64,000 bases of DNA, taken from assembly GCA_015956445.1 (NCBI GenBank), contig WIUZ02000009.1:744001-808000 (forward strand). The letters are read 5' to 3'. Numbering within the stretch: position 1 is the first letter of the stretch; every line of letters starts with the position of its first letter. Below are positions 5,406-60,175 of this stretch, in pieces. Position numbers and translations under genes: made by a program. This stretch comes from Thelephora terrestris (taxonomy: Eukaryota > Basidiomycota > Agaricomycetes > Thelephorales > Thelephoraceae). The notes below the pieces were generated by a model. The model saw only the letters and a program-made list of their open reading frames with translations, was not told the origin of the DNA and did not search any database.

Positions 5406-5648
5406 ATGGGGGAATTGTGGAGTTCTGCGTACAACGTACTAAGTTATCTACTCAAGAACAAAGGTCTGCGTCACTATCTACGAATGAAAGCTCAGAGGAA
5501 GAAAGTATTTTCGGGTTGCCCCGGATGGCTGACTCACCCCCTCCTCTATTCTTACATTAGTCTAAAGTTCGTAGAAAGCGATAGGGACTTCGTCAAGGTA
5601 ATCAAGAAGCACCTTCACGATAAGCCCCGTTCAGTCCTTAAACTCTAA
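5406..5648 (+). CDS. Small orphan ORF (80 aa), doubtful
   Basis: Begins MGELWSSAYNVLSYLLKNKG and is basic overall, with no recognised domain. Same strand as pol, and part of the run of short ORFs between pol and LTR C. It could be a separate gene, an exon joined to 5132-5380, or chance. Confidence 0.22.
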   Translation: MGELWSSAYNVLSYLLKNKGLRHYLRMKAQRKKVFSGCPGWLTHPLLYSYISLKFVESDRDFVKVIKKHLHDKPRSVLKL

Positions 5649-6288: not shown

Positions 6289-6576
6289 ATGAGAATCATC
6301 TACTACTCCCCAGATCCAAAAGGGATAGACATGTATTGGACGACCCCTCTTGAACTTTACTGCTATCTCTACTTCACCCCTTGGGAACAGGCCCGCATAC
6401 AAGCGTTCGTCAACCAGAAGGGAAGCTTTGACGGCGAATACTTCCACATTTATCACCAATGTGATCGGTATCATCTCCGTATCAGGAAGGGACAAACCGA
6501 CGACAAATTCCAGCGTCACCTTGCCTGTCTCTTCTATTTGATTGGAGTCGAAATGATCGTAGATCATCTCGTTTAA
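6289..6576 (+). CDS. Small orphan ORF (95 aa) ahead of LTR C copy 1
   Basis: The ATG at 6289 gives 95 residues starting MRIIYYSPDPKGIDMYW; the same frame is open upstream to about 6217. It is rich in aromatic residues. The layout (a hydrophobic strand with tryptophan, then a helical stretch ending in FVNQ) loosely recalls the 207-aa family A protein (ILWWDIPTELPY...FVQQLNQF), but the similarity is too weak to claim homology. Stop codon 109 bp before LTR C. Function unknown. Confidence 0.35.
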   Translation: MRIIYYSPDPKGIDMYWTTPLELYCYLYFTPWEQARIQAFVNQKGSFDGEYFHIYHQCDRYHLRIRKGQTDDKFQRHLACLFYLIGVEMIVDHLV

Positions 6577-6685
6577 TGTACGTCCACCTTTCTATTGTGC
6601 TTCCAATCAGCAAATAATAAACTGATAATCCTAGACTAGTTGGGATAGTTGCGATCAGGGACGATCGTTTAAAGTTCCCCGCGGA

Positions 6686-39048: not shown

Positions 39049-40699
39049 ATAACACGGATAATGAAAATCATGGCAATTTTTTGTGGTTCGTTTTTGGGGG
39101 TCGTTGCCAACCTTTGCTTCAGATGGCTGCGCCTGTGCTCATGAGCACATACTCACCTTCACGAAGAGACACAAAGGTGAAGATCTTGAATTTCAATCAG
39201 AATCATACTCACCGTGCCAAATGTGACTCCAGCCATCAATAGGTCACCTGTTCATCAACGAGAAACAGGCGTCGGCTATCGAGAAACTTTACAAAGAGTC
39301 CATGACCGTCTACCACGAGTTCACAGCAAGCCCAGAATCACAGCAACACGCAGAAAAATTCCTCAAGCTCCATGCTTTGACAACTGATACACTTGCCAAC
39401 CTTGAGAGTCGTTGGACTTCAGTGCGGACCAATTCTTGGGCGAAAAAATGCAGGAAATTATATCAATGGTAAGAGCCAACAGTGTTGTTTGCAGCATCCC
39501 TATTTGACGTGGCTGCTGGCAGTTCGTGTGGTTACAGCACCGAGGCGAGACAGAAGCGATCGTCTTCGCAGTCAAAGGATCAGTGGTCACGCCAGGCACC
39601 ATACGATTTCACTGGGTGCTGGGCGCATGCAGATATTACATACGACAAATCTAGTCTCAATGTCTTGAGGATAATCGGCTACTTCGAACACAATGACGAG
39701 TGCCAGAATGCGACGCTCGTCAGGTATCCATCAATCCCCCTCCATGAACACGTCTATGAGGTTGCCCTTGAGCAACTATCCCAGGGCGCCAGGTACGTCC
39801 CTAAGATACTGTCGTTGTTCCCTGCTGCCTAACATCTTCATCAGCATCACCGCTATTCAGGCCGAGAACGTTTGGCGGGTCGAGCATGGACGGTACCGGG
39901 ATATTAGCGAACGTTCAAACCACCGCTACGCACTTCTTCGTTCGGACTTCAGCCGCTTGTACCGCCATTACTACCGTTTGCAAGGTATCAATGTCGATGT
40001 CAAGCCTGAAGCAAATGTCAACAATTGGATGAAAGGCACGAGCCCGACCTTCAACCCAACGATTGCAGAGGCCGTCTTCCACTATGCTCCCCGGGTGGAA
40101 GCAGGTGAACGGTTCGAGTTATGTATATCGACACCCGAGATGCGGTCTGCCGCGGTCCAATTCGTCCACAAAAGGCAGCTCATCCTCGATGGAACGTTCG
40201 GTTTAAGTGCCTCTAGGCTCCTCGTATGGATCGCGATGGGAGTAAACGAGGGGAACCATGGTGTTCCTGTTGCAATATTTCTGTTTTCGGCTCCCTCTGG
40301 TGCAAAGGCGACGCATGCCGGTTACGACACCGCGATTCTCACGAAACTTCTCAGCAAGTGGAAAGGTTCATTCGCGCCAGGTAAACTGGAGCCCACAGTT
40401 GCAACCACAGACACGGATACCAAGGAACGAGGTGTCTTGATCAGTGTCTGGCCGGAAATCACCCTCCTTCTATGTCGGTTTCACCTGCGGCAGTGTTGGA
40501 CCAATAAGCGGAACAACCTCTTCGGCGCAAAGAATGAGACTAGTTTTTTCAAGGAAAAGGCTCTTGGCTGTGTCCGTAGTCTGGATACATTGTATGTCAC
40601 AAACGCGTGACTTAGTAGCCAAGATCTCACAAATAATTCAAGACATTGGTCTCATTCGCAGTAATAATGATACAAAGGTGACTAAAAGGAACTACAAAC

Positions 40700-41603
40700 T
40701 TAGACAAGAACAAACGGGTCGACATCACATGAACAGTTCTGAGGAAGGGGGCAACGATGAGCGAAGTGGTGAGGGTTGTGAATACTTTCAGGACAGTAAG
40801 ACCACTCTCGCGTCACCGGATCCTGCCAGCACTCCCTACACCCCAACACGTCATGAGATAAACTATCATACATCTCTCGCCGCACGTCCAACAAGGCCTC
40901 GCTCACTAATGCGAACCCATAGCGGTCTTGGAGACCCGCCACCTCCACCTTCAACTTCATCCTCACCTGCCGTGACTTGTCGGAGGGACAACAACGTTGA
41001 CCAGAACGAGTCATCGGACTCTTGCGGGCCTTCTTCCTCTGGGACCTCTCCACCATCTGGCGAACTGGGGCAGGACTCCAGGGAGAGGATGGAGGGAGAG
41101 GAACGCCCTGATCCTGGCGGTGGCGAAGGGACGACTGGGGACTTGCAAGGGGGGTCGGTGCAATAAGCCCCGTGACATTGGTGTCCGAAATATCGGAAGA
41201 GAGATGCCTGGAAAGGTCCCCAATGTTCCAAAGCAAAGTGAGAGAAGTCATCATTTAAGCTGTTCATGATGACGTACATGAGGTCCACCCGCTTCTCCAA
41301 TTTCGCGATCCTATCCTCCCTATCCCTCTCCATGACGTCCAATAACTGAACGGCTCCAGGGTGTAGAGCCCGGACCACAGGCCCAGAAAGTCTGGGATCT
41401 TCGTAACCAGCCTGTTCCCAGAACTCGGCAGGAGCGTTATGGGCGGAAAGGAAGTCGACGGCGACCTGATTGTCGTGGGCGATGTTGGCGGGAGTGTCAT
41501 ACAAGTGTTGCTCCACGTTGTAGGGAGCATCCGTCTCAAAGGACGGAGTGAAGGGAGTGGCGGCAGCGTTGAGGACGACATTGGCGGCAGCGAAAGTAGA
41601 CAT
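40700..41603 (-). CDS. Family A left gene, copy 1 (unknown; needs a frame switch)
   Basis: The ATG at 41603 opens a 245-codon frame (MSTFAAANVVLNAAATPFTP...) ending at 40866. A second frame, +1 to the first, is open from 41254 to 40700 and ends in a Cys/His-rich tail (CRECWQDP, HNPHHFAHRCPLPQ, CSC). All three copies keep both frames. Across the overlap after SPDGG, copies 1 and 3 differ by 11 residues in frame 1 but 4 in frame 2 (counted by eye), and only frame 2 continues past the frame 1 stop. The likely product joins the frame 1 N-terminus to the frame 2 C-terminus, through a short intron or a +1 shift near a run of AAG/GAA codons. There is a coiled segment around VMERDREDRIAKLEKR. No family is recognised; the Cys/His tail could bind nucleic acid. 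A TATTTAAG-type promoter element lies about 80 bp upstream. Confidence 0.6.
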
Positions 41604-42022
41604 AGTAGCAGAGGATGAGAGAAGATAGTACTGGTGTTTGGTGGGAGTGGAAAAGAGACGATGAGGGAAACGATCATTAATCCCCCTGACTTAAATACAT
41701 CCTGACTCAAGGAAAACCAGAAAGGGAAAACAAAAACCCATTATCCATTAACGTCCCCATTAGCGCAAACGAACCCTCAACCCCAATCGAGATCCCATCA
41801 ATCCAGAGAAATCCCCATCACGCTTCTATTGCTACCACGAAACACGAGAAATCCCTGAATGCTTCCATTGACCCGCGCCCCTATTGTTCCTGTATGAGTA
41901 ATTATTATTGGTCGTCCTAAGTCCCCTCATTCTGACTCATCTACCCTACCCTAAACTACGCACAGACCATGTTGACTCTTGTTTGACTCGTTGTAAAATA
42001 ATGACTCCTGTAGAGGATTGGG

Positions 42023-42030
42023 TATATAAG
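42023..42030 (+). promoter_or_regulatory. TATA box, family A right gene
   Basis: TATATAAG preceded by GAGGATTGGG, about 145 bp before the right-gene ATG; conserved in copy 2 (53747-53754) and in copy 3. Confidence 0.6.
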
Positions 42031-42174
42031 GGAGAGCGTCCGCTCCTTCTTTTCCCCATTCTCAATCTCTTCTGTACCTCTCTACCCACAACTCGAATAT
42101 AAAAGTAAGCTGGGGAATTCTCCTCACGCCTTACCTTTTCTAACTCATCTCAGCAGGAGTCCTCCTGCTAGTGT

Positions 42175-42798
42175 ATGTTCAGCGCTCCCAATCCTTTCCC
42201 CTCTACAAGTCCAGTCCAACGACCAGTCGTTCCTGACGCCAGGAGATCTATCTGGGAGTATAAACTCATCAGGAGTCTTCAAGTAAACCGAACCGCCGGT
42301 TTACTCACCCATTTTCCTTACTATCGACCCTTTGCAGCTCTCGACGCCGGAGTCACAACTCCCCCATTTCTCCTAGGAGCAGATCATCAATTCCTTTGGA
42401 ATTCGGATCTCACTGAGAGCGTCCTTGCGACCGTCTACTTCAGTATCAGCCCGGCCTTCTATTTTCCTTCTCCGCGAGTCCATCTTACCACTAACATCCA
42501 TACCCATTCCCCCGCTATCATTGTCCTTTGGTGGGAAGTCCCAACTGAATTACCTTATTCGGTTATAGAATACCTCGTCAACTTCGAACGTCTTAGCGAC
42601 CAAGACTTCGAACCCTTTGTGCAGCAACTCAATCAGTTCTGCCAGGACTACCACTCACCCATTCACCCTTATCAGACAGAGTCACCCCTCTCTCTGGATA
42701 TTCCTCCTCCCCTCGTCTCTACACCCGGAACCCCCTTTAAAACCAGACCCGACACTCCTCACCCTTCCGCTAATCCTCTAGCGCCCCACAAACAGTAA
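42175..42798 (+). CDS. Family A right gene, copy 1 (207 aa, unknown)
   Basis: Starts MFSAPNPFPSTSPVQRPVVP after the context ctagtgtATG. Single exon, 207 aa, conserved in all three copies with few replacements. The middle region looks like mixed beta strands (FLLGADHQFLWNSDLTESV, IIVLWWEVPTELPY), followed by an acidic/aromatic helix (QDFEPFVQQLNQFCQDY) and a proline-rich tail ending PLAPHKQ. No signal peptide or transmembrane helix, and no recognised family. It lies between the TATA box and the right terminus, so it would be at the 5' end of any transcript started in this LTR-like unit. Confidence 0.65.
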   Translation: MFSAPNPFPSTSPVQRPVVPDARRSIWEYKLIRSLQVNRTAGLLTHFPYYRPFAALDAGVTTPPFLLGADHQFLWNSDLTESVLATVYFSISPAFYFPSPRVHLTTNIHTHSPAIIVLWWEVPTELPYSVIEYLVNFERLSDQDFEPFVQQLNQFCQDYHSPIHPYQTESPLSLDIPPPLVSTPGTPFKTRPDTPHPSANPLAPHKQ

Positions 42799-44484
42799 GC
42801 AGGCCTACAACCCTGACATTGTACGTCTATTTTATATTTCATTTATCGGAGAACTGCTGCTGAATGACATGCTACATAGCCTCCTGTCATGCACGACTCG
42901 TGACGCCGCCCTGAAGGAGCTTCGTTCCGAATGCAAGAAGTTTGAGGATATGTTGACTGACCCCAAGAGTGAGAGTAGTGGGCGAGCTGGCCTCAAGTAC
43001 ATCGACTACCTTATGGCAACTTGGATGCCACAATCGCTCTGGAACAGCTGGTCAGAGGAGGGAAGGAGCCGTGCAGCAGAGGTCCTGGGCGTCAACATTG
43101 GTGATGTTCTCCCGACAACGAACCACCTCGAATCATTCAACGGAGTCCTCAAGCGAAAACACATAAGCCAATGGCAACGGTCGGGACGAAAACTCCGCTT
43201 TGACGTCCTTGTGTTTCGCCTCATCCTGTACATCATGCCCAACATCTATGCACAGTTCCGCCTCAATCACTCATTCGAGACATGGAAGAAGGAACGGTTC
43301 GCGAATGTTGCGGGTGTCCATGGACTTTCGCGACAGCTTCGTGCGGCAGAGAGGACCACCCAGGTTTCGCCCGTTGCCATTGCGTGGTATTCTCCCGACC
43401 CCATCCGGGACGGCTTTTCGAAGGACATCATTCGCTTGCGCCTCATCACGCCAATCCCAAGTATGAAGCCATTCGAATTATGGGCGACTTGTGCCTCTAC
43501 AAGTGCCAATGTCAGTGATCCAGGCCACCTTCGCTATTGGCTGACTGCACACCCATCTGGTCATGCCACATGTACCTGCGCTGACTGGTTGAACCGAGGT
43601 GGAGCCTGCAAGCACCTTCGAGCCTTTTGTGACCTGATTACTTTATGGGCGAAAGGCGGTCAAATTACACACGAGTTCTACTTTCCTGGTAGCGAGTCAG
43701 ATGCCTGCCATGTATTGGAAAAGAATAAGCGTTGGTACGGGCATTACTACGACCACTCTGTAACAGCACCTGCCAGCCGAGATACTTTGTCCGCGACCTG
43801 CCCACCAACCCTCCATAAATCATCAACACACATACCACTCCCCCCTCCGAATCATCCTGACATTTCACTCATCCCAACAATCGACCAAGAGGCTGAGCTT
43901 GAGGAGAGTGTCACTGCACTCGAGGACCCAGAAATTCCCGAGTTGACCCCGGCCGTCGAATCAGATACAACGCTCAAGGATAACCGCAATGCGATTGAGA
44001 TTCAAAACCAACAACGCCTTGATCACTTCATCAAGAATTCCCTCCCAAACCTCTACGGAATCTCAAATCTTCTTCAAGATTTCAGACCGAAGGTTATGGA
44101 CGTTGAATTTTCAGGTCTCATCTCCATGCTTTCTCATCAACTCGAGTCGATGACATTCACATCGGGTCCACCTCCAAGTACCATGGTGCCAGATGCCGGT
44201 CATCAGCGTGCTACTCAGACTCTTGATCCACCAAAATCCCGGATGTGTACCCCCTCGCCTCCCCGAACGCCCACAAAACGGTTTGCTCTCTTGCCTCCCT
44301 CCCCCGAAACTAAAAAAAGTACAAAGCGTATCAAGTCATATAGTACTCTTTAACTTAGAATGAAATTGACCCCTCCTTCGATGTGCCGTGTCTTCTTAAA
44401 CTGAAACATCACTCGGGCACTAAATTTTGTTCAAAACATAATGGTGATATATTTGTCAAGACACGTCAACAGGTGTGGTAAGAT

Positions 44485-45497
44485 CTACTTCATGAGTATA
44501 AACTCCAGGTCATCATCTAGCTCAGAGTTGTCATCAACTTCGATGACACACTGAGAATGCGGGATACGGCTGACACGGTTGCACTTCGGGCAGATCACGA
44601 ACAACGCGTCAAATTCGCCACGAGAAATTCCCATGCGGCTGAACAGCTTGGAGATCAGGTCAAACTGATTGACAACGGGGATGACTCCAGATGCACGCGC
44701 TTCCCAGCTTGGGATTCTAGTTTTGCGCTTCTTCCCGGATGACTGGGGCAATGCAATCGCTAGTGAAAAATAAAGTTAGTAGCTGTTCCATGTTATTAAG
44801 GTTGGCATCCTTACCATCGTCCTCAACGCTAAGAAGGGTTTGGCGGGTCTCTGCATTGTTGTACATTTCTTGAATATTTACTGTACGTATGTTGTCAGTG
44901 AACATTCTGAAATTTGAAAAGGACGAAATATACCATAATAAGGGCACTCAGACTCGGGGCAAACGAGGCTCATCTGACTGTAGGCTGGGGAAGATATTTT
45001 TCTCGGGACATAGAGGGCCACAACTCGTTCTTGATCCCGGATGGAACAGAAGCAATTGGGATTAGTATCCCAGCCATTGCTCTCGACATGATCTATCAGC
45101 TTTGCCGGGGGGACCGGTTCTCCATCACTGTTGCGAGGGCTGTTGTCGGGAATCAGTAAAGATTGTAATGGAGACCATCAAGAGCTTACTAGGGAATCGG
45201 AACAAGTTTTCCTTGGCAATGGCGGGACTTGTAGACGAATGTGACGAGAGTTTTGGCCTCTCGCAGGGCAATCCTGAATGGGACGAAAATTTTGTCATCT
45301 CGCAACGGCTGTCTTGCACCGAACTGAACCGGGTTCAGCGGACAACGAGAGGCTGTGCGGCTTGGGGTCCTGGGGGATACCGGGTTGGAACGAAACGTTG
45401 GCGTGGGTGTGTCGGGGGCAAGTGAGACCTGGCGAGAGGAAGACATGGCGACACAGGTGCACTGCCATATGTCTTTTCTTTTATCCATCATTGTCAT
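44485..45497 (-). CDS. MULE accessory gene with zinc-finger-like motifs
   Basis: Four exons on the minus strand: 45497-45190, 45139-44934, a middle exon ending at GAGGACGATG near 44827, and one from about 44767 to 44485. All introns have GT...CTRAY...AG signals (50-55 bp) and join in frame. The N-terminal region is Pro/Ser/Arg-rich (MSSSRQVSLAPDTPTPTF). The second exon has CFC...LVCPESECPYY, a CxC...CxxxxC pattern like a GRF zinc finger but without the GRxFY core. The last exon has a nuclear-localisation-like SGKKRKTRIP, then CPKC and an acidic end. It lies between the transposase and the right TIR and runs towards the transposase, so it probably travels with the MULE. A DNA-binding partner of the transposase is a guess. 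Confidence 0.65.
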
Positions 45498-45697
45498 GAA
45501 TTCTCTGCGTTATATTTAAAAAAAACTAAGTTAAAAGGTAAGGGTGAGGGAAGTGGTATTTCCCCCTCAAACGAGCAGAATCAGACACGTGTTGAAGCAG
45601 AGACGGGAGGGAGGGACATCGCGCGGAGCCCTCGGACGACGGATGACATCAAAAAGTCTTCTTTTAGTGCGTCATCATGGGCGACCGCCGTCTGTCC
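45493..45697 (-). repeat. MULE terminal inverted repeat, right
   Basis: Reverse complement of 38844-39048 with scattered mismatches; ends CCGCCGTCTGTCC, followed by the ATCACTATG duplication. Confidence 0.85.
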
Positions 45698-45706
45698 ATC
45701 ACTATG

Positions 45707-46140
45707 CAGGATTGCAACAAGTTCAACCAGTGCCAGCACTGTCCTGACTTACCAACTCTGTGGTAGCGAGCCCCATTCGATTGGCTCTCGATAATTCCTG
45801 TGATCCTCGTCCTCTTGACAGATGCTAGAATGCGAACCGCGATGAGAGACGTGACAGGACGAGGTTGAAGTACATTTGCTGACGGTATGAGCTGGCCGGG
45901 TTGAGAGTTCTGCCATCACCAGTGGCCCATTTGTATCCTAGGAATGTTCATGAGCAGTGAAAGTTTGCGAGGTGGGACGCAAACCTGAACGCCTCGGCTC
46001 TTTCCGTACTGGTGATGGTGTCTGTCAATGTGTGCGCTGATTGTAATATTCCAGAAACTCTCAGTTTATACCACAAACTAGATAAACCACAAACCTTCTT
46101 TCGGTTTGAACGGCGCATACGAACTTTCCCTTCGTAGCGA
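45707..46140. other. Flank between MULE and LTR C copy 2, nothing recognised
   Basis: A minus-strand frame (RYEGKVRMRRSNRKKVCGLS, ending about 45948) may be coding sequence cut by LTR C copy 2, since the frame runs into the LTR boundary. No family recognised. Confidence 0.3.
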
Positions 46141-47920
46141 TGTCGGACCCCTGGATTAATCATGATTTATTTACGATTTTTCGCACAATTAATAGTGTAC
46201 TTACAGCCCAAGCAAGAATAGTTTATGGATAATTGTTTATTCATTTGATAAGATAAGGACAATAGATAAGATAAGAGATAAGATAAACCTGGAAAATCAT
46301 GGAAAATCATGGAATTCCTTGGAGCCTACTGGAGAACACTGGAACATATTAGAAGGTAATGGAACATTCTAGAAGGTGATGGAATGTCACAGATGTGACC
46401 ACTGGTCACCCAAAGGAACAAGACGGAATGCCATGGAACATGATGGAATGTTATGGAATAATGTGGAATGCGTTGGAATGTTCTGGGACATTCTCCTGTA
46501 AATTAGTATATATAGACCTCAACCACACTTCTAAGGGAAAAAGCAGTTCACCCCACCAGGACAGCAGCTCACCCACTACTCAGGGAGAATCACCAACAGC
46601 TCAGTCTTCACCTAGACTGAGGCTCTCTTTGCTAGTTTTCCCCCACAACTTTTTATCTACCCCCTACCCCTTAGGACTGATTGGTTGAGTGATTTTGAGT
46701 AATCACATACCACTTTCAGCCTCATCCTCTGTGTGAAGAAGCACTAAGTCAGAAGTACTGATCAAGCCTAGCACACTTGTGACGTTGGAGTTTTTGGTGT
46801 CTGTATTGCTGAAGTCTGATACTTTAGGCAGATAGCCCTCCACTTCAGAAGAGTGTTTGTCTAGGTAACAGCCAGATTTAGCAGGTACCACAAAGGTCTC
46901 TGACATATTCTACGACATATCATTTTATCCCAAGTTTATTTGAAGTTATATTTGTTTGACGCACTAGGCGTCATCTGTAGCAAGTTTAAGGTATCTGACA
47001 TACCTCTATAAGCTCTATGACATATCTTGTCACTTTTACGACATATTAAGCACAGCCTCAGGTGTAAGCGTACACCTTCCTTATTTGGTTTAGCTTCACG
47101 ACACAGCCTCAACACAGCTTTAGGTACAGCCTAAGGACAGGACTATTACACAGCCTCAAGCACAGCCTCAAGGCCCATCTTTGAGTCAGGAACTCCATTC
47201 CTATCAGAACATAGATTCCCACGGTGAAGTTAGGTGTCTAATCAGAGTGTACAGAGCCCCTGAGTGATAACATTACTGATTCCCTAGAATAATTACTGAG
47301 GGACATACTACTAGTAGATCTCCAGCGAACTCATCAGGACCAAGAGCCGGAAAGAGGAACCCCGCTCTACCCTGTGGAGTTGTTAGTCGAGTTCATTGAC
47401 TAATCAACCAGCCTGCTTGGTTTCTATACTCTAGTCTCTAAGCAAACCAAAGGGTGTTATGTGATGATTTCGCCGTTTACCCCCTTTTATTCCCCTTTAT
47501 TTAACGCCTCATCACCACTAAGTCAGTTGGTGCCCTGCCCTAAACACGGCGGTAAACTGTTTATTATGCAATATGCCCTATGCTTAACGATTCAAAGTCC
47601 AATACGTGGAACGTGCTACTAGTCAAGATACCCCAGAAGACCCGAGGTATAATACGTGAACATGTACCGGCGGACCTTCATATGAAGATTCCCCCTACCT
47701 GGCCCTCCGTTGCCCCTGGACGATTAGTAGATATTCAGGCTACCGATAACAAGGGATGTATTAATAAGCGTCGCGCGCTGACCTCTCGCAGAAGTCAACC
47801 GGCTTATTAATCTGACCCTTGGATTGGACTTATGAAAACCATTATGCTTTACGACTCATGGATCACGCGCAATAGACAAGAAAGGAGATTCATTGGAAGC
47901 CAACAGTACAAAAGAGTTAT

Positions 47921-49181
47921 CTAATCAATATCTCTGCGGATCCATTGTACTACTTCCAATGCCGATCTCACCAACTCCTCATTCAACCAGTTCTGCTCCC
48001 GGATCTCGTTTGGGTCCACGTCCGACAAGTCATCGTAATCTGGAAGCTCCGTATCAGAGTTTGGTTCACTATCGGGAACGAACTCGGCGTACGGATCATA
48101 CTCCAGAGCAGGCCATTGACGGCGACTACCCCAAGGAGTAGAAACGAACTCAGGACGAGGAGTGTCCCTACGGACGACTCCTACGTTCTGGTAGAATTCG
48201 TCGCTCCCAATCTCGATGACCTCATCATCAATGGGAACCAACCTGTTCTCATGACGGACCAACAAACGAGCGGGCGGCGACTCAGCCCGGTTAGGGACTA
48301 TCGGCGACCCGGCCCGATACGGAACCTCCAGCTCCTCTTCTTCGACTTGGACCTCCGGCTCGTTGCACTTCCTCTGGAGATCCCGGACTTCTCCGGTCAA
48401 CTCGGAGACACGACGAGTAAGGCGGACCTAAAAGGAACAGGGTTAGAAGACGACAATTGTCTTCGATCCCAGTCCCCGTACCTTATCGTCTTCCAATTCT
48501 CCGGTCTTCGCAACAAGACTCCGAACCAAGTCCTTCAAGGTGATCACTTCTCCCTAAAAGAAAGTTTGAGTTAGAAAGGTCAATTACTCCGGACCCAAAC
48601 TTTCTTACCTTCAACCTATCGATCGCCATACCCTGCTGCTCCTGTTCATCTTCAATCTTCAAAATGCCTTCATGGCATCCAAGGAACTCCTTCTCCAACT
48701 TCTCGATCTCTTCGCGACGACCATCAACTCGCTCATTGACATGAGCATCTCATCCATCAACATGGACCCAACGTTACCCGTATGGATAACGCTGGCCTCC
48801 AACACTGAGTTGAAGGTCTCGTTGGTCTCAGTGACGAACTCGACACCCCTATTAAGGAGTTCGGTCGCATAAGGGTTTGTCTCGATGCGCGCCAACTTGC
48901 GCCGAGACACCCTACGAGAAGCCTGGATGAAATCCCTAAATCCTAAAGCGGAACGTCAGCAGACATGCTAAATATGTCAACCGGCATCCCGAACCTAAGT
49001 CAGTAAAACCCTCATTAGGGTCGGCGGTGGCGGTCCGGTCCATGACGTTTCCCAAAGTGGGATAAGGGCGGGAAGCATCCCGACGAGCATGAGAGAAGTG
49101 GTCGATATTGAAGTTGTTCTCCTGGACAGGAGAGTAGGAGGAAGAACGACGAGTGGGAACACGAGTTTGAGCACGAGGCAT
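47921..49181 (-). pseudogene. Family B gene, outer copy, frameshifted and promoterless
   Basis: Minus-strand copy of the gene at 49855-51118. Exon 1 starts at 49181; all four exons are recognisable. A 1-bp loss in exon 2 (gagatgctcatg instead of gagattgctcatg) changes DEIAHVNERVDGRR to an unrelated reading. The inner family B copy is inserted directly before the ATG, and its 5-bp duplication CATAT includes the start codon in reverse, so the old promoter now lies 2.4 kb away. Confidence 0.85.
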
Positions 49182-49416
49182 ATTGTCAGGCCGACGCGAC
49201 CTCTACAGTTCAAATCACACTCAGGGGTCAAACACACAGTTATAACCCTGTTGCAAACCCAGGGATATCGGAAGTCTCTTCACAGACTAGATTGGATAAG
49301 AGGAGAAAGAAGGAGACAAGGGTCTTCAGGCACTCTTGCTCTAAGCACACAGCAGTAGAGGTCACGGAGAGTCTGATGATAACAAATCTAAGGAGTACAG
49401 GCTAAACTACTCTGAG

Positions 49417-49426
49417 TATATATACT
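49417..49426 (-). promoter_or_regulatory. Antisense TATA box in family B
   Basis: TATATATACTC on the minus strand, about 240 bp from the TGTCAGG end; present at the matching place in the outer copy near 52015. A candidate LTR promoter opposed to the gene promoter. Confidence 0.45.
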
Positions 49427-49787
49427 ACTTAGATTTGTGATGTGACCGTCACATGTAACTATACTATGGATACAAACACAGACAAACATGGTCCGTGCAC
49501 AGCACTGCATGGTCTGTGCGTTACGTGGTGACTAATGCTACAAATTATCAGCTGATAAACGAAAGTGTGGCGGCCAGTAGCAATTTGAGAGCATTACAAA
49601 GCAGTTACAAAACATGACGTAGCCTGGGAATGTTCGGAAGGAATGTGGGTATGACTGACTAACAGCCAATGGCAAAAGGGGAGCATATGACTAAAGATAG
49701 GGGCATATGATGTCATGTGGGTCATGCGCAGTAAACAATAGAAAGGATGACTCAACTCCTGAGTCGTGGAAGGGGCGTGGCATTTGG

Positions 49788-49795
49788 TATATAAC
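49788..49795 (+). promoter_or_regulatory. TATA box of the family B gene
   Basis: TATATAAC about 67 bp upstream of the ATG at 49855; the same box is present in the promoter of the outer copy near 51640. Confidence 0.55.
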
Positions 49796-49854
49796 CAAAG
49801 GGGGTTGGATGACTGGGTCTCTCAACAAACCTCCCTTTGTTACACACAGCCAAC

Positions 49855-51118
49855 ATGCCTCGTGCTCAAACTCGTGTTCCCACTCGCCGCTCTTCTTCCT
49901 ACTCTCCTGTTCAGGAGAACAACTTTAACATTGACCGCTTTTCTCATGCTCGTCGGGATGCTTCCCGCCCTTATCCCACTTTGGGAAATGTCATGGACCG
50001 GACCGCCACCGCCGACCCTAATGAAGGTTTCACCGACTTAGGTTCGGGATGTCGGTTGACATATTTGGCGTGTCTACTGACGTTCCGCTTTTAGGTTTCA
50101 GGGATTTCATCCAGGCTTCTCGTAGGGTGTCTCGGCGCAAGTTGGCGCGTATCGAGACGAACCCTTATGCGACCGAACTCCTTAACAGGGGTGTCGAGTT
50201 CGTTACTGAGACCAATGAGACCTTCAACTCCGTGTTGGAGGCCAGCGTTATCCATACGGGTAACGTTGGGTCCATGTTGATGGATGAGATTGCTCATGTA
50301 AATGAGCGAGTTGATGGTCGTCGAGAAGAGGTCGAGAAGCTGGAGAAGGAGTTCCTCGGATGTCATGAGGGCATCTTGAAGATTGAAGATGAGCAGGAGC
50401 AGCATGGTATGGCGATCGATAGGTTGAAGGTAAATGTGGGGTCGGGAGATATTTGACATCTCTAACCTAACATTTCCTTTAGGGAGAGGTGATCACTCTG
50501 AAGGACTTGGTCCGGAGTCTTGTTGCCAAGACTGGAGAATTGGAAGACGATAAGGTACTGGGACTGGGATCGAAGATAGTTGTCATCTTCTAACCCTGTT
50601 CCTGTTAGGTCCGCCTTACTCGCCGTGTCTCCGAGTTGACCGGAGAAGTCCGGGATCTCCAGAGGCGTTGTGTTGAGCCGGAGGTCCGAGTCGAAGAGGA
50701 GGAGGGGGAAGAAATTCTGCATCGGGCCGGGTCGCCGATCATTCCTAATCGGGCCGAGTCGCCGCCTGCTCGTTTATTGGTCCGTCACGAGAACAGGTTA
50801 GTTCCTGTTGACGATGAGGTCATTGAGATCGGGAGCGACGAATTCTATCAGAACGTGGGAGTTGTCCGTAGGGACACTCCTCGTCCTGAGTTCGTGTCTA
50901 CTCCTTGGGGTAGTCGCCGTCAATGGCCTGCTCTGGAGTATGATCCGTACGCCGAGTTCGTTCCTGATAGTGAACCAAACTCTGATACGGAGCTTCCAGA
51001 TTACGATGACTTGTCGGACGTGGACCCGAACGAGATCCGGGAGCAGAACTGGTTGAATGAGGAGTTGGTGAGATCGGCATTGGAAGTAGTACAAAGGATC
51101 CGAAGAGATATTGATTAG
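49855..51118 (+). CDS. Family B gene, inner copy (367 aa, coiled coil, unknown)
   Basis: Exons 49855-50041, 50095-50429, 50483-50554 and 50609-51118; introns of 53-54 bp with GT...AG and good branch sites. 1,104 bp of CDS, 367 aa. N-terminus basic and Ser/Arg-rich (MPRAQTRVPTRRSSSYSP). Residues about 150-235 are heptad-like (EEVEKLEKEFLGCHEG, LTRRVSELTGEVRDLQRR), predicting a coiled coil. The tail is acidic (EPNSDTELPDYDDLSDVD). There is no catalytic or zinc motif. It could be a Gag-like or structural protein of the element, or a captured gene; nothing recognised. Intact, whereas the outer copy is frameshifted. Confidence 0.75.
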
Positions 51119-52343
51119 ATAACTCTTTTGTACTGTTGGCTTCCAATGAATCTTCTTTCTTGTCTATTGCGCGTGATCCATGAGTCGTAAAACATAATGG
51201 TTTTCATAAGTCCAATCCAAAGGTCAGATTAATAAGCCGGTTGACTTCTGCGAGAGGTCAGCGCGCGACGCTTATTAATACATCCCTTGTTGTCGGTAGC
51301 CTGAATATCTACTAGTCGTCCAGGGGCAACGGAGGGCCAGGTAGGGGGGATCTTCGTATGAAGGTCCGCCGGTACATGTTCACGTATTATACCTCGGGTC
51401 TTCTGGGGTATCTTGACTAGTAGCACGTTCCACGTATTGGACTTTGAGTCGTTAAGCATAGGGCATACTGCATAATAAACAGTTTACCGCCGTGTTTAGG
51501 GCAGGGCACCAACTGACTTAGTGGTGATGAGGCGTTAAATAAAGGAAATGAAAGGGGGTAAACGGCGAAATCATCACACATATTGGTTGAATGTAACAAA
51601 GGGAGGTTTGTTGAGAGACCCAGTCATCCAACCCCCTTTGGTTATATACCAAATGCCACGCCCCTTCCACGACTCAGGAGTTGAGTCATCATTTCTATTG
51701 TTTACTGCGCATGACCCACATGACATCATATGCCCCTATTTCTTAGTCATATGCTCCCCTTTTGCCATTGGCTGTTAGTCAGTCATACCCACATTCCTTC
51801 CGAACATTCCCAGGCTACGTCATGCTTTGTAACTGCTTTGTAATGCTCTCAAATTGCTACTGGCCGCCACACTTTCGTTTATCAGCTGATAATTTGTAGC
51901 ATTAGTCACCACGTAACGCACAGACCATGCAGTGCTGTGCACGGACCATGTTTGTCTGTGTTTGTATCCATAGTGTAGTTACATGTCACTGTCACGTCAC
52001 AAATCTAAGTAGTATATATACTCAGAGTAGTTTAGCCTGTACTCCTTAGATTTGTTATCATCAGACTCTCCGTGACCTCTATTGCTGTGTGCTTAGAGCA
52101 AGAGTGCCTGAAGACCCTTGTCTCCTTCTTCTCCTCTTCTCCAATCTAGTCTGTGAAGAGATTTCCGATATCCCTGGGTTTGCAACAGGGCTATAACTGT
52201 GTGTTTGATCCTTGTGTGCGATAGGTTTGGATAGCAAGTGTCACGAACGCGTGACATAGTAGCCAAGATTTCACAAATAATTCAAGACATTGGTCGCATT
52301 TGTGGTAATAATAATACAAGAGTGGCTAAAAGGGACTACAAAC

Positions 52344-53247
52344 TTAGACAAGAACAAACGGGTCGATATCACATGAACAGTTCTGAGGAAGGGGGCAACG
52401 ATGAGCGAAGTGGTGAGGGTTATGGATACTCTCAGGACAGTAAGACCACACTCGCGTCGCCGGATCCTGCCAACACTCCCTACACCCCAACACGTCATGA
52501 GATAGACTATCATACATCTCTCGTCGCATGTCCGACAAGGCCTCGCTCACTAATGCGAACCCATAGCGGTCTTGGAGACCCGCCACCTCCACCTTCAACT
52601 TCATCCTCACCTGACGTGACTTGTCGGAGGGACAACAGCGTTGACCAGAACGAGTCATCGGACTCTTGCGGGTCTTCTTCTTCTGGGACCTCTCCACCAT
52701 CTGGCGAGCTGGGGCAGGACTCCAGGGAGGGGATGGAGGGAGAGGAACGCCCCGATCCTGGCGGTGGCGAAGGGACGACTGGGGACTTGCAAGGGGGGTC
52801 GGTGCAATAAGCTCCCCCACATTGGTGTCCGAAATATTGGAAGAGAGACGCCTGGAAAGGTCCCCAATGTTCCAGAGCAAAGTGAGAGAAGTCATCATTC
52901 AAACTGTTCATGATGACGTACATGAGATCCACCCGCTTCTCCAACTTCGTAATTCGATCCTCCCTCTCCCTCTCCATGACGTCCAACAAACGAACGGCTC
53001 CAGGGTGTTGAGCTCGAACCACAGGCCCAGAAAGCCTGGGGTCTTCAAACCCAGCCTGCTCCCAGAATTTGGCGGGGGCGTTATGGGCGGTGAGGAAATC
53101 AATGGCAACCTGGTTGTCATGGGCGATGTTGGCAGGGGAGTCATATAGATGTTGCTCCACGTTGTAAGGAGCATCCGTCTCGAAGGACGGGGTGAAGGGG
53201 GTGGCAGCAGCATTGAGCACAGCGTTGTTGGCAACGAAAGAAGACAT
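52344..53247 (-). CDS. Family A left gene, copy 2
   Basis: Frame 1: ATG 53247 to 52510 (MSSFVANNAVLNAAATPFTP...). Frame 2 (+1): 52898-52344, with the Cys/His tail CRECWQDPATRVWSYCPES. Same two-frame organisation as copy 1, with no stops in either conserved part. Differences from copy 1 are mostly conservative. Product and role unknown. Confidence 0.58.
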
Positions 53248-53830
53248 AGCAGGATAGATGATTGAAGGTGGTACTGGGGTTTGGTGGGAGTGGAAAAGAG
53301 ACGATGAGGGAAACGATCATTAATCCCCCTGACTTAAATACACCCTGACTCAAAGAAAGCCGAAAAAGGAAAACAAAACCCATTATCCATTAACGTCCCC
53401 ATTAGGGTAAACGAACCCTCAGCCCCAATCGCGATCCCATCAAATCAGAGAAATCCCCATCGATCGCGGGAAATCCCCATCCGTCTTCTACTACTACCGC
53501 GAAACGAGAGAAATCCCCACCGATCATGAGAAGTCCCCATCAGTCTTCTATCACCGCCATCGATCATGAGAAATCCCCATTGTGCTCCTAGCGACTCCTT
53601 TACTATTGTTCCCCTATTTCATTTCGCTATCTGTCGTTCCAAAGTCTCACTCCCCGGACTCGTTCACCCTGCCCTAAAACTACGCACAGACCATGTTGAT
53701 TCCTGTTTGGCTCGTTGTAGAATAATGACTCCTGTAGAGGATTGGGTATATAAGGAAGAGCGTTCGCTCCTTTCTTTCCCCATTCTCAATCTCTTCTGTA
53801 CTCCTCTACCCACAACCTGAATACAAGTAA

Positions 53831-54192
53831 CACAGTGGGCAATGGGGTCCAATCCGATCCGGATTATCCCCTGTCTATGTTTTGATTAGGATAAATATTC
53901 CGTGTATTTTCTAATCTAGTATATATCTGAAAATCCAAGAATAATCCAACAAGGATTATTGTTTGAATATTTTTCGGATTATCTAAAATATTTTGCTGTG
54001 CTAGCCAATCAGCTGGCTCCAATCACAATATTCCGACACGGAATATTTTACAAGTTTCCCAACATTTTCTTAGCAATATTACCAATAATTTTCCAGTACT
54101 AAACTAATACAGAAAATGTAAGTAATATTTATCCTAATCAGAATATAAACAAGGGAAAATCCGGATGGGATTGGACCCCATTGCCCACTGTG
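53831..54192. mobile_element. 362-bp MITE with CACAGTGGGC ends
   Basis: Terminal inverted repeats of about 25 bp (CACAGTGGGCAATGGGGTCC...), extended with one mismatch to about 35 bp, flanked by TAA (53828-53830 and 54193-54195). Absent from the same place in family A copy 1, which proves insertion. The interior is AT-rich with no ORF. CAC ends with a 3-bp duplication fit CACTA-like elements; TAA would also fit PIF/Harbinger. Confidence 0.85.
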
Positions 54193-54262
54193 TAAGCTGA
54201 GGAATTCTCCTCACGTCTTACCCCTTTCTGACTCATTTTAGCAGGAATCCTCCTGCTAGTGT

Positions 54263-54886
54263 ATGTTCAGCGCCCCTAATCCTTTCCCCTCTGCAAGTCC
54301 CGTTCAGCGACCAGTTGTCCCTGACGCTAGGAGATCTATCTGGGAGAATAAACTCATCAGAAGTCTTCAAGTAAACCGAACCGCCGGTTTACTCACCCAT
54401 TTTCCTTATTATCGTCCCTTTGCAGCTCTCGACGCCGGAGTCACTACTCCTCCGTTCCTTCTAGGCGCAGACCATCAGTTCCTTTGGAACTCAGACCTCA
54501 CTAAGAGTGTCCTAGCAACCGTCTATTTCAGTGTTAGCCCTGCCTTTTACTTCCCTTCTCCCAAAGTCCATCTAACCACCAACGTTCACACTCACTCCCC
54601 CGCCCTCATCATCCTTTGGTGGGATATCCCAACTGAACTACCTTATTCGATTATAGAATATCTCGTTCACTTCGAACAACTCAGCGGTCAAGACTTCGAG
54701 CCGTTCGTTCAGCAATTGAACCAGTTTTGCCAAGACTACAACTCGCCCGTCCACCCTTATCAGACAGAGTCGCCACTCTCGCTTGATATCCCTCCTCCTC
54801 TCACCTCTACACCCGGAACCCCCTTCAAAGCTCGACCCGACACCCGACACCCCTCCGCTAATCCTCTAGCGCCCCACAGACAGTAA
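54263..54886 (+). CDS. Family A right gene, copy 2 (207 aa)
   Basis: Starts MFSAPNPFPSASPVQRPVVP. Full length and without stops; about 15-20 residue changes from copy 1 by eye. The MITE sits 70 bp upstream of the ATG, between the TATA box (53747-53754) and the start, so it lengthens the leader by 365 bp and may alter expression. Confidence 0.63.
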   Translation: MFSAPNPFPSASPVQRPVVPDARRSIWENKLIRSLQVNRTAGLLTHFPYYRPFAALDAGVTTPPFLLGADHQFLWNSDLTKSVLATVYFSVSPAFYFPSPKVHLTTNVHTHSPALIILWWDIPTELPYSIIEYLVHFEQLSGQDFEPFVQQLNQFCQDYNSPVHPYQTESPLSLDIPPPLTSTPGTPFKARPDTRHPSANPLAPHRQ

Positions 54887-55001
54887 GCAGGCCCACAACC
54901 CTGACAGCAAAAGTGCTATTGAACTGTAGAGGTCGCGTCAGCCTGACATGTTAGTTATCTTCTGTATAGGAAATAACACTACACTCCCAACGAACCCGAC
55001 A

Positions 55002-56170
55002 GCGAGAGCGTGCATGCTTTACGCCGTCACACTTCTGTGAGACATACGCCCGAATAAGTTTCAGCATGACCTTGATCACATCGGGGAAAGATACAGACTA
55101 CTCGGTGGTCTCTGGGTGTACACATCAATGATAACACATCAGCAAGATGGCAAAGAACTTATTTTTGTACATGACTTTTCACTTCTTTTCCTTCGCTTAT
55201 CGGACACTTATTACCATATTTGGAAGCCCAACTTTTATTTATTCACGACATGGCTTCTATAAGTACGTACTTTTCTCTTTTTTTCACCTTTTCTTACAGA
55301 AAAGCTTCGAAAAAGGCACAGAAAAGTCTTTTTCCTTGACTCTGATGCATGGGTTGGGCTATTTCTGATTGTTGTCAGAACTCCAATAGATTGGCCTGAT
55401 GAGGTTGGACTGTTAGGAGGAGGGAACGAAGAGAGCGGGGAGGGACCGGATGCACCCAAGCTGAAGCCTGTTGGAGGCCGTAGGCAAGGTGGGTGGTAGA
55501 AAGGTCAGTGGACAACTCGGGTGCAATGAAGGAAGGGTGAAATGGGCTCTGGTAGGGGCACATAGGTGATAATCTGGTAGGGGGTTATATACTGCATTGT
55601 GGTTGACCGAACACCAGAACCGAACTGAAAGTGGTTAATGCAAGGTCTATGCGGTACGTACCTGACCAGGTCGGAGTTCCGGTCAACGAGAAAGCAACAT
55701 CTGGGCAGCCCGACATCCGCGCAAAAACCACGGTCGAAATTTTTCTCTGACCCAATGAACAGGCAAGGAAATTTTCTACTCAAGCTGAAGCGGTCTACGA
55801 GATCCGCCAGACTTACTTCCCCCAAGGATTAGTAAGTTTGACAGATGTGCTTCTCCCGCACACACTCTTCGTGTCAGAAATTTGGAAAATAAAGATTTTG
55901 AAATGCTCGACCTCCCTCCTCTTCCTATTCGGTATGGCGACACCTGAACAGGACGCACGCCATGTACTCGGTACTGCCGCTCACTCGGGATTCCCAATTC
56001 CATCTGGATTCTTTGCAATCGTGTAGGATTCGGCTTGCCAACGACCAAGATTTCTGCCAAGAATACGGCGTGCGCAGGCACTGAAGATCATCAGTTCGTC
56101 AACAAACTTATTCCAAGGACCTCTTTTTTCCCCTTGAGTACCAAGAAAGCGTAGATCAAACATCTCTCTC
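55002..56170. other. Flank between LTR C copy 2 and family A copy 3, no gene recognised
   Basis: Open frames on both strands (for example 55147-55368 plus, 56081-55776 minus) have no known domain. Host sequence into which the repeats inserted, possibly a broken gene that continued at 45948-46140. Confidence 0.35.
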
Positions 56171-56190
56171 TGTCAGGGTTGTAGGCCTGC

Positions 56191-56814
56191 TTACTGTTTG
56201 TGGGGCGCTAGAGGATTAGCGGAGGGGTATGGGGTGTCGGGTCGAGTTTGGAAGGGGGTTCCGGGCGTAGAGGTGAGAGGAGGAGGGATATCGAGGGAGA
56301 GTGGTGACTCTGTTTGATAAGGGTGAACGGGTGAGTTATAGTCTTGACAAAACTGGTTCAATTGCTGAACGAACGGTTCGAAGTCTTGACCGCTGAGTTG
56401 TTCGAAGTGAACGAGATATTCTATAATCGAATAAGGTAGTTCAGCAGGGATGTCCCACCAAAGGATGATGAGAGCAGGACAATGAGTGTGAACGTTGGTG
56501 GTTAAATGAACTTTGGGAGACGGGAAATAAAAGGCGGGGCTAACGCTGAAATAGACGGTTGCTAGGACACTCTTAGTGAGGTCTGAGTTCCAAAGGAATT
56601 GATGGTCCGCGCCTAGAAGGAAAGGGGGAGTAGTGACTCCGGCGTCGAGAGCTGCAAAGGGACGATAGTAAGGGAAGTGGGTGAGTAAACCGGCGGTTCG
56701 GTTTACTTGAAGACTTCTGATGAGTTTATACTCCCAGATAGATCTCCTAGCGTCTGGGACGACTGGTCGTTGAACGGGACTTGTAGATGGGAAAGGGTTA
56801 GGGGCGTTGAACAT
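56191..56814 (-). CDS. Family A right gene, copy 3 (207 aa)
   Basis: Starts MFNAPNPFPSTSPVQRPVVP and ends PLAPHKQ 20 bp from the unit's end. Very close to copy 2 in the central region. The reading frame is intact, but its promoter (TATA on the far side of the LTR C insertion, near 58525) is separated from it by 1.56 kb. Confidence 0.62.
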   Translation of the reverse strand: MFNAPNPFPSTSPVQRPVVPDARRSIWEYKLIRSLQVNRTAGLLTHFPYYRPFAALDAGVTTPPFLLGADHQFLWNSDLTKSVLATVYFSVSPAFYFPSPKVHLTTNVHTHCPALIILWWDIPAELPYSIIEYLVHFEQLSGQDFEPFVQQLNQFCQDYNSPVHPYQTESPLSLDIPPPLTSTPGTPFQTRPDTPYPSANPLAPHKQ

Positions 56815-56951
56815 ACACTGGCAGGAGGATTCCTGCTGAAATGAGTTAGAAAGGGCAAGACGTGAGGAGAATTCCTCAGCTTACTTGTATTCAGGTTATG
56901 GGTAGGGGAGTACAGAAGAGATTGAGAATGGGGAAAAGAAGGAGCGAACGC

Positions 56952-58512
56952 TGTCGGACCCCAGGATTATCATTATTTATTTTACGATTTTACGCACAAT
57001 TTATACTCAACAGACTGGTCAATGGGTTATTTAAATGATTTAAATATTGTTTAATCCAGATAAGATTAGATAACAGAAATCTAATTATAATCCATTGTAG
57101 ATAAGATAAGATAAGGATCCTACAGATTAGATCAAGAGATCAGATAGCCATGGAAAGCCCTAGAACATCATGGAACTTCCTGGAACATGCTGGAAAGTGC
57201 TGGAACATTCTAGAAGGTGACGGAACGTCACAAATGTGATAACTTGTCACACCAAGAATGCTGTGGAAGCAGATGGAACATGACGGAATATTATGGAACA
57301 TTGTGGAAAGTGCTGGAATGTTCTAGAACATTCTTGTGTAAAATAGTATATATAGACCTCAACCCCACTTCTAAGAGAAAAACAGGTACCTACTGCTCAG
57401 GAGAAAAGCACAGTTTGCTCTATCCTCACATCAGCTGAGCATCCTTTTGCTCAGTGTCTCTCTTCCCCCCCCCCACTTTACATCTACCCCCTCTCTCTCT
57501 ACATCTACCCCCTAAAGTATCTACCTCAATTCCCTTAGGACTGATTGGTTGAGTGATTTGAGCAATCACATACCATATTTTAGCCCTACCCTCTGTGAGA
57601 AGAAGTTCTAAGTCAGAAGAACTGAATAAGCTTAGTACACTTGAGACGTTGGAATCTTGGTATCTGTAGTACTAAAGTCTGAAACTTTAGGCAGATAACC
57701 CCACCTCAGAGAAGTGACTGACTGAGTGACAGCCAGATTTAGCAGTACCACAAGGACTTACGACATATTTTACGACATAGGTTTATTATCTGAAGATTAT
57801 TGAAGACATATCAGTTAGACGTACTAGACGTCATCTGCAGCAAAGTTTAGGGTATCAGTTATACCCTCCCAGTTTTACGACATATCTTGTCACCTTTACA
57901 ACATATCTAGCACAGCCCCAGGTGTAAGTGTACACCTTCCCTTTTAGGTCTAGTCACACGACACAGCCTCAACACAGCCTTAGGCACAGCCCTAAGCACA
58001 GCCCTAAGCACAGCCCTAAGCACAGCCCTAAGCACAGCCCTAAGCACAGCATCAAAGCACAGCATCAAAGCACAGCCTTAGGAATTCAGCCTCAAACACA
58101 CCCTTTGAGCATCCCCCTCTTTCCCCCTCCCCTTTGGTCTACCCCAGTAGATCATCCCCTCCACTCTTGATCTCCCCTTAGATCAGGAACTCCATTCCCA
58201 TCAAATCACCACCAAACCCCCACACACCAGATAAGCGTCTAATCAAGGAACAGGAACAACTGAGTGATATAGTACGTCTGATTCCCTTGGAATAATACTG
58301 AAGGACACACTCACAGAGTAGATCCCTCAGCGAACTCATCAGGTCCGAGAGCCGGAAAGAGGAACCCCGCTCACCCTGTGGAGTTGTTAGTCGAGTTCAT
58401 AGACTACTCAACCAGCCTGCTTAGCTTCTATACACTTAGTCTCTAAGCGAACCAACTGGGTCTAGTTATCTTCTGTATAGAACATAACACTACACCACCC
58501 ACGAGCACGACA
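56952..58512 (+). repeat. LTR family C, copy 3 (1,561 bp, diverged)
   Basis: TGTCGGACCCCAGGATT at the start, CGAGCACGACA at the end. Flanked by ACGC on both sides (56948-56951 and 58513-58516), a 4-bp duplication as in copy 2. Inserted between TATA box and right gene of family A copy 3. Longer than copies 1 and 2, partly through a 12-bp tandem array, and clearly more diverged. Confidence 0.85.
57983..58050 (+). repeat. 12-bp tandem repeat in LTR C copy 3
   Basis: About five to six copies of GCACAGCCCTAA. Copies 1 and 2 have only scattered CACAGCCT words here, so the array expanded in this copy. Confidence 0.8.
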
Positions 58513-59028
58513 ACGCTCTTCCTTATATACCCAATCCTCTACAGGAGTCATTATTCTACAACGAGTCAAACAAGAGTCAACATGGTCTGTGCGTAGTTTA
58601 GGGTAGGGTAGAAGAATCAGAATGAAGGGACTTAGGACGACCGATAGTAATTTCGCATACGGGAACAATAGGGGCGCGGGTTAATGGAAGCGTTCAGGGA
58701 TTTCTCGTGTTTCATGGCAGCAATAGAAGCGTGATGGGGATTTCTCGCGATCGATGGGGATTTCTCTGGATTCATGGTAGCAATAGAAGCGTGGTGGGGA
58801 TTTCCCATGATCGATGGGGATTTCTCTGAATTGATGGAATCTTGATTGGGGTTGAGGGTTCGTTTACCCTAATGGAGACGTTAATGGATAATGGGGTTTT
58901 GTTTTCCCTTTCTGGTTTTCCTTGAGTCAGGATGTATTTAAGTCAGGGGGGATTAATGATCGTTTCCCCCATCGTCTCTTTTCCACTCCCATCACATACC
59001 AGTGCCATTCCTCTCATCCTCTGCTACT

Positions 59029-59932
59029 ATGTCTACTTTCGCTGCCACCAACGCCGTTCTCAACGCCGCCGCCACCCCCTTCACTCCGTCCTTTGAGACG
59101 GATGCTCCTTACAATGTGGAGCAACACTTGTACGATACCCCCGCCAACATCGCCCACGACAATCAGGTTGCCGTCGACTTCCTTACCGCTCATAACGCTC
59201 CTGCCGAGTTCTGGGCACAAGCCGGTTACGAAGATCCCCGACTTTCTGGGCCTGTGGTCCGCGCTCTACACCCTGGAGCCGTTCAGTTATTGGACGTCAT
59301 GGAGAGGGATAGGGAGGATAGGATTGCGAAATTGGAGAAGCGGGTGGACCTCATGTACGTCATCATGAACAGCTTGAATGATGACTTTTCTCACTTTGCC
59401 TTGGAACATTGGGGACCTTTCCAGGCATCTCTCTTCCGATATTTCGGACACCAATGTCGCGGGGCTTATTGCACCGACCCCCCTTGCAAGTCCCCAGTCA
59501 TCCCTTCGCCACCGCCAGGATCAGGGCGTTCCTCTCCCTCCATCCCCTCCCTGGAGTCCTGCCCCAGTTCGCCAGATGGTGGAGAGGTCCCAGAAGAAGA
59601 AGAACCGCAAGAGTCCGATGACTCGTTCTGGACAACGTTGTCGTCCGTCCGACAAGTCACGTCAGGTTCGGATGAAGCTGAAAGTGGAGGTGGCGGGTCT
59701 CCAAGACCGCTATGGGTTCGCCTTAGTGAGCGAGGCCTTGTCGGACGTGCGACGGGAGATGTATGATAGTCTATCTCATGATGTGTTGGGGTGTAGGCAG
59801 TGTTGGCAGGATCCGGTGACGCGAGAGTGGTCGTACTGTCCTGAGAGTATTCATAATCCTCACCACTTCGCTCATCGTTGCCCTCTTCCTCAGAAGTGTT
59901 CATGCGATGTTGACCCGTTTGTTCTTGTCTGA
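59029..59932 (+). CDS. Family A left gene, copy 3
   Basis: ATG at 59029 (MSTFAATNAVLNAAATPFTP...). Frame 1 is open to 59766 and frame 2 (+1) from 59378 to 59932, ending in CRQCWQDPVTREWSYCPES and CSCDVDP. In this copy the overlap reads AGAAGAAGAAGAACC near 59595, a repetitive stretch where the frame could change. No stop interrupts the inferred hybrid product. Function unknown. Confidence 0.58.
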
Positions 59933-60175
59933 GTTTGTAATTCCTTTTAGCTACTCCTGTACTATTATTACTGCGAATGAGACCAATGTCTTGAATTACT
60001 TGTGCGATCTTGGCTACTATGTCACGCGTTCGTGACACTCTCTCTCTTATTTACACCCCCGCTCACTCTACGGAAACCTACAAGGCCACTCTTGCTCTTG
60101 TGGCATATGGACTAGAGCCAGAGACATACTATCGAATGATGGCACACACAAAACGATTGCTCTTTTGTTGATTAT

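Follow-up and report, generated by a model that had tools for sequence, protein, structure and literature searches.

What are the three gene-carrying repeat units that lie close together in one stretch of the genome of Thelephora terrestris, an ectomycorrhizal fungus? The stretch, hereafter the window, comprises 64,000 nucleotides (positions 744001-808000, label C60) of an assembly of 40.6 Mb in 60 contigs. A first-pass annotation, made from the letters of the window alone, had described the units (A1, A2, and A3, together family A) as resembling solo long terminal repeats (LTRs), each packed with two divergent genes. This description is unexpected, since LTRs usually count as regulatory sequence, and a solo LTR as a dead scar without genes. 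We found that both genes bear the marks of selection, and that two other families of the same genome, C and D, have gene-carrying LTRs paired around internal regions, of the Ty3/gypsy type in C and probably so in D. The family-A units are best read as solo LTRs, probably those of a Ty3/gypsy chromovirus-like Thelephora lineage whose LTRs carry genes.

The three units align as one family. Their positions, their TGTCA...TGACA ends, and their 5-bp target duplications (Table 1; four of five bases in A2) were as first annotated, as was the presence of the two divergent genes in every copy. A3 had been taken as one unit of 3867 bp; its coordinates and ends hold, but this length includes a foreign insert of 1.56 kb. 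A2 also contains a nested insert, which appeared by eye to be like a miniature inverted-repeat transposable element (about 53840-54190, inverted ends of ~25 bp). Patterns made from the unit ends, with up to 3 mismatches allowed, matched the genome 314 times for the left end and 321 times for the right end, while the same patterns read backwards as a control gave 4 and 0 matches, respectively. There are thus about 315 family-A units in the genome, scattered over many sites, some nested in one another and some interrupted by other elements. One of them, L080 (C1:183501-190050), holds a 4.1-kb insert with inverted ends.

Further evidence for integration of individual units was obtained from the 54 units in which both ends were read, leaving aside three partial pieces and the units with one end not located. 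An exact 5-bp duplication of its own flanked 47 of them, while chance would provide such a repeat once per 1024 units. By batch, the counts were 2/3 in the window, then 5/5, 15/16, 12/15 (including L018 and L023), 5/5, 2/2, and 6/8 (including L021). The seven units without an exact duplication were A2, L019, L018, L058, L073, and two at C12:3266329-3272562. For A2, the empty site was found in locus L019, upstream of the unit there, indicating a clean insertion. We also noted three adjoining units without matching duplications at C12:3261918-3272562, perhaps a rearranged cluster.

Gene 2, which runs rightward, is intact in A1, A2, and A3 and stops, in A1, 20 bp short of the unit end, as first annotated. 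A genome search with its 207-residue protein gave 413 candidates, the best 150 of which were scored; the matched part was stop-free in 141 of the scored candidates, a set that is biased toward well-kept copies because it was picked by protein score. Of 56 units sampled, 54 had the complete frame intact, the exceptions being one with a stop and L070, which was scored as non-intact on the ground that it had not been cut at the unit end. We also took a sample of 12 other units, chosen by their right end alone outside the best 150 of the 413 matches. Gene 2 was intact in six of them and broken in the others: L099 had one stop, L092 a shift near the start, and L091, L093, L094, and L096 were otherwise broken. 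The six intact copies and the one with a single stop had ratios of nonsynonymous to synonymous differences per site (pN/pS) of 0.06-0.14 against their nearest relative. On contigs C1-C11, 43 of 93 listed right ends fell among the best 150 matches in a hand tally, from which, as a rough figure, gene 2 may be intact in roughly 70% of the units.

Judged by its codon changes, gene 2 is under purifying selection. Among 35 copies, diversity at codon positions 1, 2, and 3 was 0.032, 0.010, and 0.254, and the mean nonsynonymous rate (dN) divided by the mean synonymous rate (dS) was 0.033, with a median dS of 0.53. On a tree of the 54 intact copies, the dN/dS ratio omega was about 0.069 on terminal branches, with a median terminal dS of about 0.1, and about 0.054 on internal ones. 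At least 5 synonymous changes were present on 47 of the 54 terminal branches, and on none of those 47 did the ratio exceed 0.5. In a simulation, 5% neutral change left 27% of gene-2 copies with their start codon and free of stops. Sequences from JGI contained relatives of equal length with 71-89% identity. The selection on both genes (omega 0.05-0.07 for gene 2, pN/pS 0.22 and 0.17 for exon 1 and the Cys/His tail of gene 1) refutes the idea that the frames are chance openings in a repeat, against which these relatives speak as well, and which we regard as virtually untenable even though none of the known domains or folds that we looked for turned up in either protein (see below). The low terminal omega would also suit a dispersed gene pair domesticated by the host and kept for its use at the present sites. 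This is most improbable, because the units occupy many sites, are nested in one another and broken by other elements, and had lost an intact gene 2 in half of the sample chosen by right end.

Gene 1 runs leftward and stops, in A1, 105 bp from the unit end opposite gene 2, as had been noted. The first-pass annotation assumed that it needs a frame switch. We confirmed the two frames, but the switch itself fits a 70-nt intron, GTACGT...CAG, which in all three window copies is predicted to join frame a (245 residues) to frame b, yielding a protein of 277 residues with a Cys/His tail. The intron motif was present in 47 of 56 units. Not every unit has an intact gene 1: a complete, stop-free frame was seen for a in 45 of 53 units and for b in 45 of 52. 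The joined frames were also visible by eye in five public gene models (P0032, P0040, P0041, P0042, and P0044). For exon 1, pN/pS was 0.22; the Cys/His tail had a ratio of 0.17, and the codons of the intron, taken in frame a, one of 0.09. Where the frames overlap, pS dropped in frame a from 0.50 outside the stretch to about 0.12 within it, and in frame b from 0.36 to about 0.10, as is expected where both frames are used. Both reading frames of the overlap thus look constrained, and this pattern suggests that both gene-1 proteins may be produced.

No Pfam domain scored over its cut-off in the family-A frames, neither protein showed a catalytic domain, and no known fold was found. The domain scan of these frames gave no integrase or transposase match either. 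This bears on the possibility that the units are DNA transposons like Ginger, whose ends are TGT...ACA and whose transposase is an integrase of the retroviral type; TGTCA...TGACA would then be short terminal inverted repeats. Self-contained units with their own duplications and such ends would suit this explanation, but the ends of family A are identical in inverted orientation over only about 5 bp, without long inverted repeats, and integrase copies lie near A units no more often than by chance. We hold a Ginger-like origin to be very unlikely, even if an unlinked autonomous copy may exist.

The strongest argument for LTRs came from families C and D. Three A units of 5.5-5.6 kb contained a 3.3-kb insert of family C, with ends TGTCAGGAAC...CCCTGACA and a 5-bp duplication that was exact in two of the three. 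One pair of these 3.3-kb units, at C4:70589-82281, encloses an internal region of about 5.1 kb; the pair has the duplication ATCAC, and its two LTRs are 99.97% identical over 3281 bp. The internal region matched zf-CCHC, protease, reverse transcriptase, RNase H, integrase (after the reverse transcriptase), and Chromo domains. Family C is thus a Ty3/gypsy chromovirus, with reverse transcriptase, RNase H, an integrase after the reverse transcriptase, a chromodomain, and an LTR pair with its duplication all present. Eight integrase copies with 99-100% identity belong to this family, and three further ones with 71-72% identity over about 220 residues define family D, a candidate chromovirus; one of its elements, on C12, has LTRs of 2934 bp, 99.93% identical, and the duplication GTTTT. 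Two junctions between a family-C LTR and an internal region, at C23:1032748 and C23:1042058, lie 9.3 kb apart on the same strand, possibly in a tandem with a common LTR.

The LTRs of C and D both contain antisense frames, one of which is homologous between the two families (34% identical residues in an alignment of 110 columns; E 2e-10 by BLASTP), while blastn of one LTR against the other gave only a single 22-bp match. The antisense frames of the C LTR have a comparable two-frame overlap with a weaker fall in pS (0.28 to 0.17 and 0.20 to 0.13), as determined with 7 sequences, two of which have stops in some frames. The final 8 bases, CCCTGACA, are common to A, C, and D units, and all three families share TG...CA ends and a 5-bp duplication with fungal Ty3/gypsy chromoviruses of the Tcn1 type. 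The left end of family C had 423 matches, compared with 2 for the control. By this count, roughly 400 C units, only three of which were read, seem to lack an internal region, against 8 that have one. With 423 left ends for 8 integrase copies, units of this reduced kind predominate in C too.

Several observations weigh against the assignment of family A to such elements. The first-pass annotation had proposed to look for direct pairs of the unit around gag-pol, and none was found in the part of the assembly that was examined, a partial census. Junctions between LTR and internal region of the C and D type occurred at 10 places, 8 for C, 2 for D, and none for A. Integrase genes were located between A ends of the same strand at 3 of 147 places, while random strands gave a mean of 2.92, and each of these three places had at least one flanking A unit with its own duplication; this comparison was based on 150 gene-2 places, 70 further right ends, and 100 left ends, the remaining left ends being estimated. 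The flanks downstream of 30 A units revealed no common internal start. Adjacent matches between flanks amounted to one segmental duplication (L012/L013) plus L015, with 163 bp in common because these units lie reversed within other A units, and the flanks of L004 and L018 share 284 bp that begin 40-50 bp away. Among the listed frames of C and D, in which no profile search was made, we noticed none that corresponds to gene 2, and hhalign gave no link between gene 1 of family A and the C frame. Within the overlap of gene 1, pN/pS was only about 0.6. Finally, constraint on terminal branches of the gene-2 tree was about the same as on internal ones, whereas dead solo LTRs should decay neutrally. 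What stands of the solo-LTR interpretation is carried by the ends, the duplications, and above all the LTR pairs of C and D; for want of a pair, family A is not assigned to any named element and is only likened to a solo LTR in its working.

The missing pairs and the terminal constraint may be explained in two ways. The units would be very young insertions, with full-length A elements elsewhere in the species, which we consider the probable explanation. Otherwise, the unit itself would be a selected, propagating selfish element without an internal region, moved in trans by a chromoviral integrase that uses its ends, and so an exploiter of related chromoviruses with similar LTR genes. The two genes of the unit would then work in cis or to the benefit of the unit. 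As no A pair around gag-pol was found, this second explanation has to be weighed. It would account for about 315 units with no internal region found, for the strong constraint at a median terminal dS of only about 0.1, and for the 8 terminal bases that A has in common with C and D. Yet neither protein has a recognizable catalytic domain, the similarly built C and D are ordinary LTR pairs, the surplus of units without an internal region is also observed in C, and we know of no route from a solo LTR to integration-ready complementary DNA. We consider self-propagation unlikely, though clearly less so than a Ginger-like origin. If true, it would represent a new class of selfish element, with two selected genes and no internal region.

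Under the solo-LTR interpretation, which we prefer, a family-A unit would correspond to U3-R-U5 (unique 3' region, repeat, and unique 5' region). Gene 1 would lie antisense in U3, with its own leftward TATA-like box and its 70-nt intron, and would encode two proteins that use one common stretch in different frames. Gene 2 would be in the sense direction, about 150 bp past the TATATAAG box in A1 and ending 20 bp before the LTR end; in a full element, it would come first among the frames of the genomic RNA. The TATATAAG motif, a putative promoter of the TATA type in the sense orientation, was found in 56 of 56 units. Such a layout agrees with the position of this motif, with the location of gene 2 near the unit end, and with an antisense gene that lies on the upstream side of the box. 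The integrase of the element would create the 5-bp duplication, and recombination between LTRs would then remove the internal gag-pol, leaving gene 1 and gene 2 behind. On this view, family A would have had an internal region, and its genes would be transcribed, with splicing.

Table 1. Coordinates of the family-A units and of their genes in the window
Feature	Position	Strand	Remarks
Unit A1, 2224 bp	40595..42818	+	TGTCA...TGACA ends; target duplication TTGTA/TTGTA
A1 gene 1	40700..41603	-	277 aa if spliced as predicted (stop at 40700); 245 aa if not spliced (stop at 40866)
A1 gene 1, two overlapping open frames	40866..41207	-	
A1 gene 1, predicted 70-nt intron	41208..41277	-	GTACGT...CAG; excision switches frame
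A1 gene 1, leftward TATA-like TATTTAAG	41697	-	
A1 gene 2, 207 aa	42175..42798	+	sense; downstream of TATATAAG at 42023
Unit A2, 2668 bp	52239..54906	+	TGTCA...TGACA ends; duplication GCAAG/GCAAA (4/5 bases); empty site known
A2 gene 1	52344..53247	-	predicted intron 52852-52921
A2 gene 2, 207 aa	54263..54886	+	
Unit A3, 3867 bp with nested insert	56171..60037	-	TGTCA...TGACA ends; duplication CTCTC/CTCTC on + strand
A3 gene 2, 207 aa	56191..56814	-	
Nested insert in A3, 1.56 kb, foreign to unit	56953..58512		TGTCG...CGACA ends
A3 gene 1	59029..59932	+	predicted intron 59355-59424

Other repeats and genes were noted in the window. A1 interrupts, near a GTACGT site, a gene resembling the transposase of Mutator-like elements (39693-40610 and 42869-44353); the left part of this gene matched PF10551 (E 2.3e-7), and the right part, without a Pfam match, has a Cys/His pattern that we take to be SWIM-like. 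A repeat family, B, forms an inverted pair of 93-97% identity with antisense open frames (47460-52222 and 54907-54950), and A2 sits within one of its copies, near a CCTGACA end. A Ty3/gypsy pol frame of 1181 residues is followed by a 1.3-kb repeat (622-8052), which recurs at 46139-47459 (98% identity) and, in diverged form, in the insert of A3. The segment 19617-25984 is a young Ty1/copia element, with 351-bp direct repeats that are 100% identical and a single frame of 1638 residues. Related long frames cluster in both orientations at 8932-36190; the one that was scanned is F-box-like (PF12937).

Our results indicate that one fungus harbors LTR families with antisense genes in overlapping frames, plus a sense gene in family A, and that these genes have been under purifying selection. 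Because a solo LTR retains its genes after the loss of gag-pol, many copies of element genes can persist in a genome. This makes it possible to test if the genes of an LTR have a regulatory, silencing, or helping effect on their parent element, and if there can be more to a solo LTR than a scar. A precedent is known from mouse mammary tumour virus, whose LTR contains the protein-coding gene sag. This is a single sense gene in a full provirus, whereas family A has two divergent genes, with overlapping frames, that persist in solo units.

An open-access literature search, with most subscription papers outside its scope, did not lead us to recognize a description of such gene-carrying fungal LTRs. 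Passages on genes inside LTRs were not found in the parts covered of PMC3248453, on fungal LTR elements, or of PMC3411680, on Laccaria. T. terrestris is named among the mycorrhizal genomes in PMC7550596, the covered passages of which do not mention the family-A feature. The accumulation of solo LTRs through LTR-LTR recombination is described for rotifers in passages of PMC5408684.

One of the closest likenesses is with plant Ty3/gypsy elements, in which additional antisense open reading frames between pol and the 3' LTR have supposed regulatory roles, according to passages of PMC11963269 and PMC7264820. As far as those passages go, Retand, Grande, and RIRE2 resemble family A in having conserved antisense genes, with no function assigned, in elements of the Ty3/gypsy type. 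They differ in that their antisense genes are in the internal region and those of Retand mostly have a TRP28 domain, while those of family A are inside the LTR-like unit; TRP28 (PF04195) had no match in the A frames at E <= 1 or in the C frames at E <= 0.01. By analogy with the antisense genes of Retand and Grande and with retroviral accessory genes, the gene-1 and gene-2 proteins may have a regulatory role. Among fungal elements, SM-Tcn1 has TG...CA ends, a 5-bp duplication, and LTRs of 440 bp, as reported in passages of PMC2864245. The LTRs described here, including those of family A, for which no internal region was seen, are 2.2-3.3 kb long and differ from these short repeats in carrying conserved antisense genes, to which family A adds a gene in the sense orientation.

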